The notes below the pieces were generated by a model. It made no database searches and was not told the origin of the DNA. It worked only from the letters and a program-made list of their open reading frames with translations. Below are positions 31,748 to 41,837 of a stretch of DNA of 64,000 nucleotides, in pieces. Position numbers and translations under genes: made by a program. Source of the DNA: Asanoa siamensis. Lineage in GTDB: Bacteria; Actinomycetota; Actinomycetes; Mycobacteriales; Micromonosporaceae. Location: the NCBI RefSeq assembly GCF_016862555.1, contig NZ_BONE01000003.1, positions 62,001 through 126,000 on the forward strand. The letters run 5' to 3'. Position 1 is the stretch's first letter; the number at the start of each line of letters is the position of its first letter.

Positions 31748-32341
31748 CTAGAGATATTGGCCGGTGCCGCGGCCCTCGGTGCCGGGCTGCTGGCCGCCGG
31801 GGAGGCCGGGGATCACGCCCGGCACGGCGCCCGGTGGCAGGGCCGGGCGGCCGCCGCCGCCACCGCGCATCTGCTCGAGCTGCATGCGGGCAGCCATCTG
31901 CTGGGCCACCAGCGCGGCCTGGATGCCGTGGAACAGCCCCTCCAGCCAGCCGACGAGCTGAGCCTGGGCGACCCGCAGCTCGCCCTCGCTCGGCGTCGAC
32001 GTCTCGCTGAACGGCAGCGAGAGCCGCTCGAGCTCGTCGCGCAGCTCCGGCGAGAGGCCGTCCTCCAGCTCGACGATCGACCGCTGGTGGATGTCGCGCA
32101 GGCGGGCCCGGCTGGCTTCGTCCAGCGGCGCCGCGCGTACCTCTTCCAGCAGTTGCTTGATCATGCTGCCGATCCGCATGACCTTGGCGGGCTGCTCGAT
32201 CTGGCGGCCCGGGTCTTCCTCGCCGGCGCCGTCCGCGTCGACCGTGCCGACGGGGCGGCCGTCCGGCCCGACCACCACGACGGTGCCCGACCGACGGTTG
32301 CCTTCGACCTGCTCGTCCGGCGCTCCTGGGGTCTCGGTCAT
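31748..32341 (-). CDS. bpa: bacterial proteasome activator
   Basis: A 197-residue homologue of Bpa/PafE (DUF2587). The helical core is RIGSMIKQLLEEVRAAPLDE, LRDIHQRSIVELEDGLSPEL and VAQAQLVGWLEGLFHGIQAALVAQQ, which in the family assembles a ring that opens the 20S proteasome gate without ATP. The protein ends in Gly-Gln-Tyr-Leu, the C-terminal docking tail shared with Mpa. The N-terminal tail (about residues 1-50) is acidic and disordered; a Gly/Pro region separates the helices from the tail. ATG 32341 was preferred over 32350. It is evidence that the organism has a mycobacterial-type proteasome. Confidence 0.9.
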   Translation of the reverse strand: MTETPGAPDEQVEGNRRSGTVVVVGPDGRPVGTVDADGAGEEDPGRQIEQPAKVMRIGSMIKQLLEEVRAAPLDEASRARLRDIHQRSIVELEDGLSPELRDELERLSLPFSETSTPSEGELRVAQAQLVGWLEGLFHGIQAALVAQQMAARMQLEQMRGGGGGRPALPPGAVPGVIPGLPGGQQPGTEGRGTGQYL

Positions 32342-35905: not shown

Positions 35906-37798
35906 ATGACGAAGGCCAGTCGCGGTGCGATCGCCGTTGCCGCCGTGTTGCTCGTGTCCGGGTGCACCGCCGGTTCACCCCCGCCGGCCTCGTCTCCCCC
36001 GCCTCCGCCGCCGGCGGCGCCCGCGCCCGCGTTCCAGCTCGTCGCGTTCGACTCGTGTGCCGACGTGCTGGCCTCCGTGAAGAAGGCGGCCAAGGAGTCG
36101 GTGACGCCGTGGGGTTTCCCTGACGGGTTCGGCCGGGCCTGGGCGTCCGCGCGGGCCGCCGGTGCCGCGCCGGAGTCGCTCAATGCCCGCGACGCCGTCG
36201 AGAAGGGCGACACCGGCTTCTCGGGCACCAACACCCACGAGGCGGGTGTCGACGAGCCCGACCTGGTGAAGACCGACGGGCGACGGATCGTGACGGTCAG
36301 CGGCCAGGTGTTGCGGGTGGTCGACCCCGCCTCCCGCCGGTTGACCGGCACCGTCGACCTCGGCGGCGACGAGTTGCCGCTGATCGACCCGCAACTGCTG
36401 CTCTCCGGCGACCGGGCCATGGTGCTCACCGCGGTGCCGTCGCGGGTCGAGCCGGGCCGCGAGGCTGTCCGCGAGAGCCTGGTCCCGTGGGCCGCGACCA
36501 CCGTCCGGCTGATCACGGTCGACCTGGTCGGGCTGTCGGTGGTCGGCTCCTACACTCTCGACGGCTCGCTGGTCGACGCACGCCAGGTGGGCACGACCGC
36601 ACGGATCGTGGTGCGCTCGCGCCCGCGGATCACCTTCCCCTATCGGGAGCAGGGCACCGACGCCCAGCGCCTACGCGACAACCGGGCGACGATTGACCGG
36701 TCCACAATCGACGATTGGCTGCCACGCTGGTCGTCGCTCAACGGCGGGTCACGCGACGGCGGCCGGATCGACTGCGGGGCGCTGCGCAGGCCCGACGTCT
36801 TCTCGGGCACGTCGCTGCTGACGGTGCTGAGCTTCGACATCGGCGGCGCGTACGGCACCGGCGACCCGACCACGATCCTGGCCGACGGCGATCTGGTCTA
36901 CAGCAACGGCCCCAGCCTCTATGTGGCCAACGACCAGCGCTGGCGCACGTTCCAGACGGACCTGGTCCGGACCTCGCCCGGACGACCGCAGGACCTCTCG
37001 ACGGTGATCTACCGCTTCGACGTGTCCGCGGCCGGACCACCGCGCTACGTCGCCGCCGGTTCGATCCCCGGCAATGTGCTCAACCAGTACGCGATGTCGG
37101 AGTTCGACGGCCACCTGCGCGTGGCGACCACGCTGGCGTCGAACGAGTCGTCTGTCTACGTGTTGCGCGTAAGCGACCTGGCCCGGGTGGGCATGGTCGG
37201 CGGTCTGGGCAAGGGAGAGCGAATCTACAGTGTCCGGTTCGCGGGCGTGGTCGGCTACGTGGTGACGTTCCGGCAGACGGACCCTCTCTACACTGTGGAC
37301 CTCTCCAATCCGATGGCGCCGGCGGTGCGGGGCGAGCTGAAGATAAACGGATACTCCGCCTATTTGCACCCGGCGCCCAACGGCCGCCTGATCGGGGTAG
37401 GCCAGGACGCGGACGAACGCGGCATGACGCTCGGCACCCAGGTGTCACTTTTCGACGTCTCGAACCTGTCGACCCCCACGCGGGTGGCTCAGCATCGCAT
37501 CCCCGGCAGCTATTCGGAGGCCGAGCACGACCCACACGCGTTCCTCTACTGGGAGCGGACGGGCTTGCTGGTCGTCCCGGTGAACACAGGTGGCCAGCAG
37601 GAAATGCTTGCGCTGCACCTCTCGGGTTCGAAGCTGACGTCGCTGGGCACGGTGCGGCATGCAATGGGCAAGCTCGACTATCCACCGATGATCCGCCGGT
37701 CCCTGATGGTCTCCGGGACACTGTGGACGGTGTCGGAGGCCGGCATGCGGGCGACGGATCCTACGTCCATGCGCGACCAGGGGTGGATCGCCTTCTAG
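35906..37798 (+). CDS. secreted beta-propeller lipoprotein (COG4880-like)
   Basis: A 630-residue exported protein: signal peptide with lipobox LVSGC, a Pro-rich spacer (about residues 24-48), then repeated beta-propeller blades. Repeats such as RIVTVSGQVLRVVDPASRR, DLVYSNGPSLYVAND and VVGYVVTFRQTDPLYTVDLS fit the archaeal/bacterial secreted C-terminal beta-propeller family. Activity is unknown; such propellers bind ligands or proteins at the cell surface. ATG 35906. A convergent gene ends 223 bp downstream, across a low-complexity GGCGCA repeat. Confidence 0.75.
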   Translation: MTKASRGAIAVAAVLLVSGCTAGSPPPASSPPPPPPAAPAPAFQLVAFDSCADVLASVKKAAKESVTPWGFPDGFGRAWASARAAGAAPESLNARDAVEKGDTGFSGTNTHEAGVDEPDLVKTDGRRIVTVSGQVLRVVDPASRRLTGTVDLGGDELPLIDPQLLLSGDRAMVLTAVPSRVEPGREAVRESLVPWAATTVRLITVDLVGLSVVGSYTLDGSLVDARQVGTTARIVVRSRPRITFPYREQGTDAQRLRDNRATIDRSTIDDWLPRWSSLNGGSRDGGRIDCGALRRPDVFSGTSLLTVLSFDIGGAYGTGDPTTILADGDLVYSNGPSLYVANDQRWRTFQTDLVRTSPGRPQDLSTVIYRFDVSAAGPPRYVAAGSIPGNVLNQYAMSEFDGHLRVATTLASNESSVYVLRVSDLARVGMVGGLGKGERIYSVRFAGVVGYVVTFRQTDPLYTVDLSNPMAPAVRGELKINGYSAYLHPAPNGRLIGVGQDADERGMTLGTQVSLFDVSNLSTPTRVAQHRIPGSYSEAEHDPHAFLYWERTGLLVVPVNTGGQQEMLALHLSGSKLTSLGTVRHAMGKLDYPPMIRRSLMVSGTLWTVSEAGMRATDPTSMRDQGWIAF

Positions 37799-38021: not shown

Positions 38022-39119
38022 TTAGAGGTACATGCCCGTCTTGGGCTCCTGCGCGGTCGTGCGGTGGGGTGGCTTGTCGCCCTCGCCGAAGAAGCGCTTG
38101 CCGCCGAACTCGCCGTGTAGGCGGTCGTCGAGTTCGTCGGCCAGGCCCGTCATGACCTGGACGGCGAGCATCAGGTGGGTCGCCTGGAAGTTGCGGCCGA
38201 AGACGGGGATCGACGCCCAGACGGTGTCGTTGGTGCAGTAGAGGCGGCCGATCGGCATGCGGTTGGTCAGCTCGGAGAGCTTCACGTACAGCTGCTCGGT
38301 CGGGTCGACCTCGGTGAGCACCGGCGAGAAGACGTCGACCAGCGGCGGGTTGTCCCGGACGCGTACGAAGACCATGGCCGAGCCGGCCCTGATGCCGATG
38401 TCGCCGTCGGAGTCGAGCGTGAGCTGGTCCGGCTCGGACTTCATCAGCGCGGCGACCACGGTGCGCACGCGCTCCTCGAGCGCCACGCTGTCGTCGTCGG
38501 CCGGCTGCTGCTCACCGCGGGCGGCGATCGCCTGGCCGGCCTTAATGGCGCTGTCGAGGTCGAGGCTCCCGGCCAACTCGGGGCGCGCGGTGGCGAGCGG
38601 CTCGACGGGGATCGGCTCATCCTCGGCGTCGTGCACGAGGTAGACGAGGAAAGCGGGGTGCGGGGCGCCGTAGACGTCGCGCAACGTACGCGAAACGGTC
38701 GTGGCGATCCGGGACGCGTCCTTGATCGGCGCATGCAACCCGAACTGCTCACCGGAATCCGGCAACACCCCGGGCGGCGACCACCCGAGCGCGACAAGAT
38801 CGGCTACCGCGCCCCGGTCGAGCCGGTAGCCCTCCGGCAGCGACGCGTTGCCGACCGCGAGCGCGCGCACCATGCCGTCGCTGACGATCTGAAGCTCGAC
38901 CGAGTAGACGGCAGCACCGGTGCCCGAGGCGGTCGGATCCAGCGTCAGCTCGACGCGCGAGCCGACCGGAAGCCCGGGAAGCACCGTCGACAGCGCCCGC
39001 GCGAAGTCACGCCACGCCTCGATGACCTTGCCCCGCAGGTCAGCCGTGCTCGCCTCGTCGAGCAGGATGGCATCGGCAAAGCCTTCGTCGCCCGTACTCG
39101 CTAGCTGCGCTGACGTCAT
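38022..39119 (-). CDS. TY-Chap/YbjN-like putative peptide chaperone ending in a proteasome-type tail
   Basis: A 365-residue soluble protein with two related type III chaperone/YbjN-like halves: an N-terminal domain (about 25-180; SRVELTLDPTASG, PAFLVYLVHD) and a C-terminal domain (about 215-345; VFVRVRDNPPLVDVFSPVL, LYVKLSELTNRMPIGRLYC, ATHLMLAVQVMTGLADELDD). Such domains are proposed to hold peptides or unfolded chains. The extreme C-terminus is Lys-Thr-Gly-Met-Tyr-Leu after a disordered linker, matching the HbYX/GQYL class of 20S proteasome docking tails. GGAGG at the -10 position supports ATG 39119. The docking role is inference. Confidence 0.75.
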   Translation of the reverse strand: MTSAQLASTGDEGFADAILLDEASTADLRGKVIEAWRDFARALSTVLPGLPVGSRVELTLDPTASGTGAAVYSVELQIVSDGMVRALAVGNASLPEGYRLDRGAVADLVALGWSPPGVLPDSGEQFGLHAPIKDASRIATTVSRTLRDVYGAPHPAFLVYLVHDAEDEPIPVEPLATARPELAGSLDLDSAIKAGQAIAARGEQQPADDDSVALEERVRTVVAALMKSEPDQLTLDSDGDIGIRAGSAMVFVRVRDNPPLVDVFSPVLTEVDPTEQLYVKLSELTNRMPIGRLYCTNDTVWASIPVFGRNFQATHLMLAVQVMTGLADELDDRLHGEFGGKRFFGEGDKPPHRTTAQEPKTGMYL

Positions 39120-39555: not shown

Positions 39556-40164
39556 GTGGCGAGGTTCGCGGCCGTCGTGTTGGCGGGCGGCAGTGCCCGG
39601 CGGATGGGCGGATCCGACAAGCCGTCCGTGCTCGTGGCCGGGATCTCGATGCGCGACCGGGTGCTGTCCGCCGTCGCCGCGGCGGAACCGCGCGTGGTCG
39701 TCGGCGGACGCTCCGATGTGCCGGACGGCGTGCGCTGGACCCGCGAGGAGCCACCCGGTGGCGGACCGGTCGCCGCCCTCGCCGCCGGACTCGCGACGGT
39801 GGACCCGGGCGCGGAAGAGGTGGTCGTCGTAGCCGGCGACCTACCGATGCTGACGACGGCAGCCGTACACGACCTGCGCGAAGCTCTGTCCACTGCGGAC
39901 GGATCACTGTTCGTCGACCGCGACGGCCGGCGGCAGTTGCTGTGCGGGGTATGGCGGACCGCGGCCCTGCGCCGCCGCCTGACCGAGATGGCCGCAGCGC
40001 AGCCCGGCGGGGTAGCCGGCGCGTCGATGCGCGCCCTGATCGAACCCCTCGACGTGGTCGACGTTTCGTGGGCGGGAGAAGATCCGCCGCCGTGGTTCGA
40101 CTGCGACACCGATGACGACCTCCGTAAGGTGCGGGAATGGCTGACAGCGAAAACCACGGGATAA
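39556..40164 (+). CDS. mobA: molybdenum cofactor guanylyltransferase
   Basis: A 202-residue nucleotidyltransferase that attaches GMP to molybdenum cofactor. The signature VVLAGGSARRMGGSDK (Gly-rich loop with Arg and Lys) is at residues 7-22, followed by VVVAGDLPML (metal Asp) and the C-terminal PPPWFDCDTDDDL. The next gene overlaps its end by 28 bp in another frame. It belongs to a Moco group with fdhD, moaA and moaD nearby. GTG start with GGAAGGAG 5 nt upstream. Confidence 0.85.
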   Translation: MARFAAVVLAGGSARRMGGSDKPSVLVAGISMRDRVLSAVAAAEPRVVVGGRSDVPDGVRWTREEPPGGGPVAALAAGLATVDPGAEEVVVVAGDLPMLTTAAVHDLREALSTADGSLFVDRDGRRQLLCGVWRTAALRRRLTEMAAAQPGGVAGASMRALIEPLDVVDVSWAGEDPPPWFDCDTDDDLRKVREWLTAKTTG

Positions 40165-40952: not shown

Positions 40953-41837
40953 GTGGGACGCGTAACCGACAGGCGGGAGATCGTGCGTATCGACCTCTCG
41001 ACCGGCACCGCCGTGCGCCGGATGGACTCGATCTCCGGTGAGGAGCCGCTCGAGATCCGGGTGGGTAGCCGCGCCGACGGGCCAGGGCCCCGGCGGCCGC
41101 TCGCCGTCACCATGCGTACTCCGGGTGACGACATCGATCTCGCCATCGGGTTCCTGCTGACCGAAGGCGTGATCCGCGACGCCGGCGACATCGTCACCGC
41201 CCAGCTGTGCGCAGGCACGGACACTCCCAACACCTACAACGTGGTCGACATCGTGCTCGCCGACGACGTGCCCGCGCCCGACACCGATCCCGCTCGTGCG
41301 TTCTACACGACCAGTTCCTGCGGCGTCTGCGGCAAGGCGAGCATCGACGCGATCCGTACCCGGTCGCCGTGGCAACTCGCCGAGAGCGGGATGACCATCT
41401 CCGCCCACCAGCTCGCGGCCCTGCCCGAGCGGCTGCGGGCCGCCCAGCGGGCGTTCGACCGTACCGGTGGACTGCATGCCGCCGGACTGTTCACCGCCGA
41501 CGGCGAGCCGGTGCTGGTGCGTGAGGACGTCGGGCGGCACAACGCCGTCGACAAGGTCATCGGACGGGCCGTCGCGGAGCACCGCTTGCCGCTGCGCGAC
41601 CATGTGTTGCTCGTGTCCGGGCGCGCCAGTTTCGAGCTCACGCAGAAGGCGTGGATGGCCGGAATCCCGCTGCTGGCCGCCGTGTCGGCGCCGAGTTCGC
41701 TCGCCGTCGACCTGGCGCAGGAAGCCGGCATGACGCTGGTCGGCTTCCTGCGTGGCGTGACCATGAACGTGTACGCCGGCGCCCACCGCGTCACCCAGGC
41801 CGATCCCGAGCGCACGGCGACGCAGGCGGCCGGCTGA
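40953..41837 (+). CDS. fdhD: sulfur carrier protein FdhD
   Basis: A 294-residue protein that transfers sulfur to the molybdenum cofactor for formate dehydrogenase maturation. The Cys motif SSCGVCGKASIDAI (two Cys, CGVCG, about residue 129) accepts sulfur from a Cys desulfurase. Family marks: EEPLEIRV, DIDLAIGFLLTEGVI, REDVGRHNAVDKVIG, LVSGRASFELTQKAW. No formate dehydrogenase gene is in the window. GTG start 40953 matches the family N-terminus and has CAGGAT 6 nt upstream. Confidence 0.93.
   Translation: MGRVTDRREIVRIDLSTGTAVRRMDSISGEEPLEIRVGSRADGPGPRRPLAVTMRTPGDDIDLAIGFLLTEGVIRDAGDIVTAQLCAGTDTPNTYNVVDIVLADDVPAPDTDPARAFYTTSSCGVCGKASIDAIRTRSPWQLAESGMTISAHQLAALPERLRAAQRAFDRTGGLHAAGLFTADGEPVLVREDVGRHNAVDKVIGRAVAEHRLPLRDHVLLVSGRASFELTQKAWMAGIPLLAAVSAPSSLAVDLAQEAGMTLVGFLRGVTMNVYAGAHRVTQADPERTATQAAG

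Follow-up and report, generated by a model that had tools for sequence, protein, structure and literature searches.

Reviews name Mpa/ARC, Bpa/PafE and Cpa as regulators of the bacterial proteasome; Cpa, in the available part of the paper on it, is described as lacking the GQYL motif (PMC8223512). Bpa was discovered by searching Mycobacterium tuberculosis for ends of the hydrophobic-tyrosine-X (HbYX)/GQYL type (accessible text of PMC4254994). In M. tuberculosis, Tyr173 and Leu174 of the Bpa tail are in contact with the PrcA residues Arg26 and Lys52 (available part of PMC11953334), and in the accessible portions of PMC12288473 and PMC6017811 the Gln of GQYL is described as non-essential or freely changeable. 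Here, a further protein with an end of this type was analyzed. It is encoded in a stretch of 64,000 nucleotides from Asanoa siamensis (assembly GCF_016862555.1, contig NZ_BONE01000003.1, positions 62,001 to 126,000; hereafter the window) and consists of two TY-Chap domains, a linker and a C-terminal Gly-Met-Tyr-Leu (GMYL). To judge from the sequences of its homologues this tail is a selected feature, and it probably serves as a proteasome-docking motif. The TY-Chap domain family and the GQYL motif are both known, and their union was not found in the literature searched.

The gene and its parts are placed in the window as follows:

38022..39119, minus strand: gene of the TY-Chap3 + TY-Chap1 protein, 365 amino acids (aa), ATG start, TAA stop, translation without internal stop
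38646..39020, minus strand: TY-Chap3 domain, residues 34-158 (Pfam PF22552, E 5e-26, 92.1 bits)
38085..38480, minus strand: TY-Chap1 domain with a CesT/YbjN-like fold, residues 214-345 (Pfam PF22551, E 9e-44, 148.7 bits)
38037..38084, minus strand: variable linker, residues 346-361, its end predicted to be disordered
38022..38036, minus strand: C-terminal Gly-Met-Tyr-Leu and stop codon, the conserved GxYL end and proposed 20S docking tail

The minus-strand open reading frame (ORF) 38022-39119 ends in ...EPKTGMYL, frame 1 of the plus strand is interrupted by stops over the same positions, and the start region is similar in congeneric relatives. Both domains score above the curated Pfam cut-offs, which are 27 bits for each, and they were the only ones listed in a Pfam scan of the protein up to E 1; in that scan neither the BPA profile (PF10759) nor an AAA ATPase domain nor Chap-C (PF22554) was matched, and no NCBIfam match was obtained. 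In structure models, which are of single chains, TY-Chap1 adopts the class I secretion-chaperone/YbjN fold, an alpha-beta chaperone fold of the type III secretion system (T3SS) chaperone type. The AlphaFold model of TY-Chap3 (residues 19-180) has a mean predicted local distance difference test (pLDDT) score of 85, and residues 355-365, which include the tail, stay below 50 and are thus predicted to be disordered. An earlier note, made from the letters of the window, had described chaperone-type domains and a disordered linker followed by Lys-Thr-Gly-Met-Tyr-Leu-stop. The Pfam matches, the variable linker with its low pLDDT and the translation agree with it in all of these respects, and Met-Tyr-Leu does keep the hydrophobic-Tyr-X rule that the note had invoked: the tail has the hydrophobic/Gln-Tyr-X form seen in the GQYL/HbYX-tailed 20S interactors.

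Conservation of the tail carries the argument. The homologues were defined as ORFs in the fetched loci that matched the family profile at E <= 1e-40 and spanned it (192 records, 146 distinct); in one of the homologue searches the best 80 of 204 relatives were kept. A G-x-Y-L end was found in 145 of the 146 distinct full-length proteins (GMYL in 140, GQYL in three and GGYL in two), and the sole exception, L209, is a distant protein of 628 aa ending in IALG. Non-conservation of the last residues in orthologues, the check proposed with the note, is thereby clearly ruled out. A match was present in 34 of the 61 relatives of the first panel and reached the C-terminus in 32 of them, with 29 GMYL and three GQYL ends, which were read from 30 loci together with L287 and L288. 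In the order panel, the matches of all 73 full-length rows extended to the last model position; 54 of these were fetched and read, and 19 were not fetched.

The linkers in front of the 145 tails are 13-21 residues long and comprise 110 distinct sequences, with a pairwise identity of 0.12-0.24 at positions -9 to -14. Position -4 is Gly in every row (identity 1.00), position -3 is Met, Gln or Gly, and Thr and Arg predominate at positions -5 and -6; positions -1 and -2 are invariant by choice, since the rows were picked for ending in YL. The codons of the tail vary by synonymous change only: GGC 112, GGG 29, GGT 3 and GGA 1 for Gly; TAC 112 and TAT 33 for Tyr; CTC 103, CTG 35, CTA 4 and TTG 3 for Leu. 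Because 145 of 146 homologues keep G-x-Y-L behind 110 different linkers while synonymous change is free, the tail is under strong purifying selection.

A resemblance by chance, without function, was weighed against these data. The 8.78 Mb of the host genome contain five sites of the pattern Gly-[Lys/Ile/Met/Gln/some Leu codons]-Tyr-Leu-TRR, in which the codons of position -3 are covered in part, against six for the backward pattern used as a control. Two of the five read TGG, which is no stop, and the remaining three are Bpa, Mpa and the TY-Chap gene. The tail alone within one genome is therefore not beyond chance, and the case rests on conservation. Across the homologues, Gly, Tyr and Leu are kept in 145 of 146 while the linker is scrambled, which refutes chance as regards selection on the tail and makes this explanation highly improbable. 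Pattern counts as proof of specificity were dropped once they had been compared with the backward controls. The 61 relatives gave 46 GMYL-pattern sites and 19 backward ones; 29 of the 46 are the TY-Chap gene, seven read TGG and ten have a real stop elsewhere. These 17 sites outside the TY-Chap gene represent no excess, because the backward control gives 19.

Whole reading frames were counted as well. The 80 named loci contain 8,805 ORFs of at least 100 aa, of which 157 end in GxYL: 80 TY-Chap proteins and 77 Bpa. When all loci not chosen by tail were considered, the number was 252 of 12,229 distinct ORFs of this length: 119 TY-Chap, 102 Bpa, 30 Mpa-type AAA proteins (recognized by their P-loop string) and one GroES-like protein. 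Residue frequencies predict 0.13 GxYL ends among the other 11,977 ORFs and none was observed; this ORF count is a background for DNA of such composition, since most six-frame ORFs are not genes.

These counts bear on a second explanation, that the tail is kept for another reason (another partner, fold-back on the TY-Chap domains or avoidance of C-terminal proteolysis) and that its likeness to GQYL is convergent. Proteasome docking is read from sequence, the co-occurrence with 20S genes described below does not discriminate, and HbYX ends are common, at 0.72% of bacterial proteins (available text of PMC11475706). Nevertheless, three orthologues carry the exact GQYL, the only other GxYL ends in the fetched loci are those of proteasome activators and of a single GroES-like protein, the tail is often preceded by Thr-Gly, a feature shared with Mpa and Bpa, and the model shows it as disordered and not packed. 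We therefore regard a different function of the tail as improbable, and proteasome docking as the preferred reading.

The host genome carries prcB, Mpa and Bpa; above the cut-off, prcB was detected in 60 of the 61 relatives and Mpa in 57, and Bpa in all 61. GQYL is the end of Mpa in all 30 loci and of Bpa in 106 of 107; the remaining Bpa (L170, genome G038) has GQSL in its place. One genome of the relatives panel, G057, has Bpa with no prcB match and no Mpa above the cut-off, either because genes were lost or because the assembly has a gap. Among the hosts of tailed full-length TY-Chap proteins, all that were tested have prcB. In an alignment with the M. tuberculosis subunit, the host PrcA residues Arg24 and Lys50 fall on Arg26 and Lys52. 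As the Gln of GQYL is described as dispensable and Met-Tyr-Leu fits the HbYX rule, GMYL should dock.

Several observations weigh against this reading. The co-occurrence of tail and 20S does not discriminate, because 308 of the 394 class genomes have prcB above the cut-off anyway. Among the 23 stop-terminated TY-Chap ORFs of the class panel, only the pair from family f35 ends in GxYL, and the remoter, mostly tail-less TY-Chap ORFs sit in hosts nearly all of which have prcB. Moreover, the gene is accessory: six of the 37 family genomes lack it and yet have prcB and Bpa (one of the six, G010, is 69% complete). In addition, prcB was present in 68 of 70 genomes chosen with and without the TY-Chap gene, and ten listed genomes of genus g12 have prcB and no TY-Chap gene. 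The genomes G440 and G562, which lack prcB, have remote tail-less homologues only. Two prcB genes above the cut-off were seen in each of G256, G647 and G746, and G256 also differs from the rest of the genomes listed for its genus in having no TY-Chap gene.

Taken together, it is reasonably probable from the sequences that the TY-Chap protein is an ATP-independent, chaperone-type partner that hands clients to the 20S. The two tandem TY-chaperone domains, one of them CesT/YbjN-like, would hold unfolded segments, and the flexible linker of 13-21 residues would present the C-terminal GMYL. This end would insert between alpha subunits, in the same pockets that receive the GQYL of Bpa and Mpa, with the tail Leu near Lys50 and the Tyr near Arg24 of the host PrcA. 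A client would thus be tethered at the 20S pore, and the gate might be opened. From the observed domains, tail, tail conservation, predicted disorder and pocket residues we infer 20S binding, client binding and the direction of the effect (delivery rather than inhibition).

The direction is where the main rival differs. With the same docking, the protein might limit or time the proteasome, either by competing with Bpa and Mpa for the pockets of the alpha ring or as an assembly or quality-control chaperone of half-proteasomes. The same tail conservation would be expected, a non-ring protein would fit a competitor or an assembly factor better than a pore, and HbYX-dependent assembly factors are described in eukaryotes and archaea (accessible text of PMC4254994). 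By contrast, assembly cannot generally depend on the TY-Chap protein when the six proteasome-bearing family genomes mentioned above lack its gene, actinobacterial cores are described, in the available part of PMC10452565, as formed via alpha-beta heterodimers, and TY-Chap1 resembles client-binding chaperones. We consider a competitor or assembly role unlikely, though less so than a tail kept for reasons other than the proteasome.

The tail marks one branch of the TY-Chap family, since the remoter homologues are mostly without it. The two GGYL proteins occur in two genomes of family f35, which belongs to another order, and show about 34-38% identity; in that order, the protein occurs in two of three genomes. 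A midpoint-rooted tree was built from 51 rows of the TY-Chap1 domain and has several long branches. It places the GGYL pair (100/98) next to a group of 44 others (100/97), unites the three GQYL orthologues in one clade (100/96) among GMYL rows, and gathers six of the tail-less paralogues into another (100/100) within the GMYL sequences. Two other tail-less paralogues also fall within the tailed sequences, on weak forks. The simplest reading of these sequences would be that the G-x-Y-L end is old, that Met changed to Gln once, and that duplicated copies lost the tail. None of the eight partial, TY-Chap1-only paralogues of Micromonosporaceae (L270-L277), set aside before the 146 were counted, ends in GxYL; three scanned tail-less paralogues contain tetratricopeptide repeat (TPR)-like parts, and L273 and L274 stop directly after the domain.

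The phylum panel of 396 genomes yielded no further full-length homologue, and a plasmid search with the TY-Chap protein gave a single remote match. Six TY-Chap1-type loci fetched from the phylum panel end in GAYL or GGYL (two), AGYI (one) or otherwise (three). The first three of these are the TY-Chap1-only proteins of L310 (1297-1926, plus strand), L312 and L313, from other families of the phylum, with the ends GHGAYL, EPGGYL and PAGYI, respectively.

Around the TY-Chap gene, the window contains the following genes:

31748..32341, minus strand: bpa (bacterial proteasome activator), 197 aa, PF10759, ends in ...GRGTGQYL
35906-37798, plus strand: beta-propeller protein (Pfam)
39556-40164, plus strand: MobA-like transferase (Pfam)
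40953-41837, plus strand: FdhD (Pfam)

The bpa and TY-Chap genes lie on the same strand with their stops 6.3 kb apart, so that the earlier note was right to place a Bpa ending in Gly-Thr-Gly-Gln-Tyr-Leu about 6 kb away. bpa is found 1.9-8.1 kb from the TY-Chap gene in 77 of the 80 named loci. This linkage seems to reflect a gene order that was inherited: in some genera the distance between the genes is tens to hundreds of kb or they lie on separate contigs, and the stretches fetched from f13 and f35 showed no Bpa. An operon of the TY-Chap gene with bpa was rejected, as the TY-Chap gene stands alone. A promoter scan at the gene found no promoter-like site, and a terminator scan found two terminator-like sites, both on the plus strand.

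GxYL ends were also met on other chaperone-type proteins. Nine of the ten real-stop GMYL sites outside the TY-Chap gene in the 61 relatives were fetched, and the proteins were thus selected by tail: three DUF5925-AAA ATPases, one GroES-like protein, one ORF of 490 aa and four short, doubtful ORFs. The DUF5925-AAA and GroES-like proteins collected in the fetched loci are:

L325, 433-2133, minus strand: actinobacterial DUF5925-AAA ATPase, ends in TGMYL
L328, 336-2054, plus strand: actinobacterial DUF5925-AAA ATPase, ends in TGMYL
L330, 878-2077, plus strand: actinobacterial DUF5925-AAA ATPase, ends in GGMYL
L333: actinobacterial DUF5925-AAA ATPase, ends in TGLYL (three of these four were found by tail)
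L149, 706-1098, minus strand: GroES-like protein, Cpn10 by Pfam, ends in TGLYL
L331, 1733-2059, plus strand: GroES-like protein, Cpn10 by Pfam, ends in SGMYL
L334, 301-594, plus strand: GroES-like protein, ends in TGLYL

The ATPases found by tail in genomes G011, G028 and G056 end in NTGMYL, PTGMYL and DGGMYL, and the tail-selected GroES-like protein in GSGMYL. Other cases were independent of tail selection: in Nonomuraea gerenzanensis a DUF5925-AAA protein ends in STGLYL and a GroES-like protein in GTGLYL, and in G042 a product ending in ATGLYL is encoded by a GroES-like gene that lies downstream of bpa at about 0.4 kb, in the same orientation. The 490-aa ORF (L324, 578-2047, plus strand; no Pfam match) ends in VGMYL, and its genome, G011, carries it alongside the TY-Chap and DUF5925-AAA GMYL proteins.

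The AAA ATPase of the mycobacteriophages Myrna, Phabba and ScoobyDoobyDoo (Myrnavirus; L335, L344 and L343), also not selected by tail, ends in VGQYL, and DUF5925 was found in both phage proteins scanned, those of Myrna and ScoobyDoobyDoo. Phage tails were read in these three phages; 24 remoter AAA records (below 60% identity) and ordinary plasmid GroES matches were left out. The Myrnavirus AAA gene adjoins genes annotated as nicotinamide/nicotinate phosphoribosyl transferase. A phage-made proteasome cap is possible from this end. GxYL on DUF5925-AAA proteins, with GQYL in the three Myrnavirus phages, and on GroES-like proteins hints at a wider docking code. We give an even chance to the broader proposal that G-x-Y-L (x = Q, M, L, G or A) is a general actinobacterial proteasome docking code across at least five unrelated chaperone-type families (Mpa, Bpa, TY-Chap, DUF5925-AAA and GroES-like co-chaperonins), and that Myrnavirus phages may plug their own DUF5925-AAA unfoldase into the host proteasome. 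Many swappable caps would in that case share the proteasome as their hub, and the AAA, GroES-like and phage proteins make this code experimentally accessible.

No TY-Chap protein was named as a proteasome partner in the literature searched, which covered few subscription papers; ProEnd, a resource on HbYX ends, may include such proteins uncommented, and 'YbjN' does not occur in the available text describing it (PMC11475706). A chaperone-fold partner with the shared tail, if confirmed, would show that bacterial proteasomes have further, lineage-specific caps. Proteasome partners besides Mpa and Bpa likewise include the HbYX-dependent assembly chaperones (Pba1-Pba2) and Cpa; the domains of both are unrelated to TY-Chap. 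The class I T3SS chaperones (CesT, SycE and ExsC) and YbjN/AmyR/DR1245 differ from the TY-Chap protein, which has a second TY-Chap domain and the GxYL tail. Mpa/ARC (TIGR03689) has the GQYL-type tail in common with it, whereas the TY-Chap protein lacks the AAA domain. The TY-Chap1/TY-Chap3 proteins of ADP-ribose-linked conflict systems (PMC9503650, in the part available) share the two Pfam domains in the same order, as seen in L207 (TY-Chap3 + TY-Chap1, then Chap-C), compared by domains alone. L207 ends in Chap-C, whereas the tailed family ends in a linker of 13-21 aa and GMYL, here beside MobA-like and FdhD genes. Bpa/PafE (PF10759) also combines the absence of an ATPase domain with a C-terminal G-x-Y-L after a flexible linker, in the same genomes and neighbourhood. 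Bpa is a dodecamer of four-helix bundles, as described in the available text of PMC11953334, whereas the TY-Chap protein has two alpha/beta domains; and Bpa is general, whereas the TY-Chap protein has mostly GMYL as its tail and is encoded by an accessory gene.
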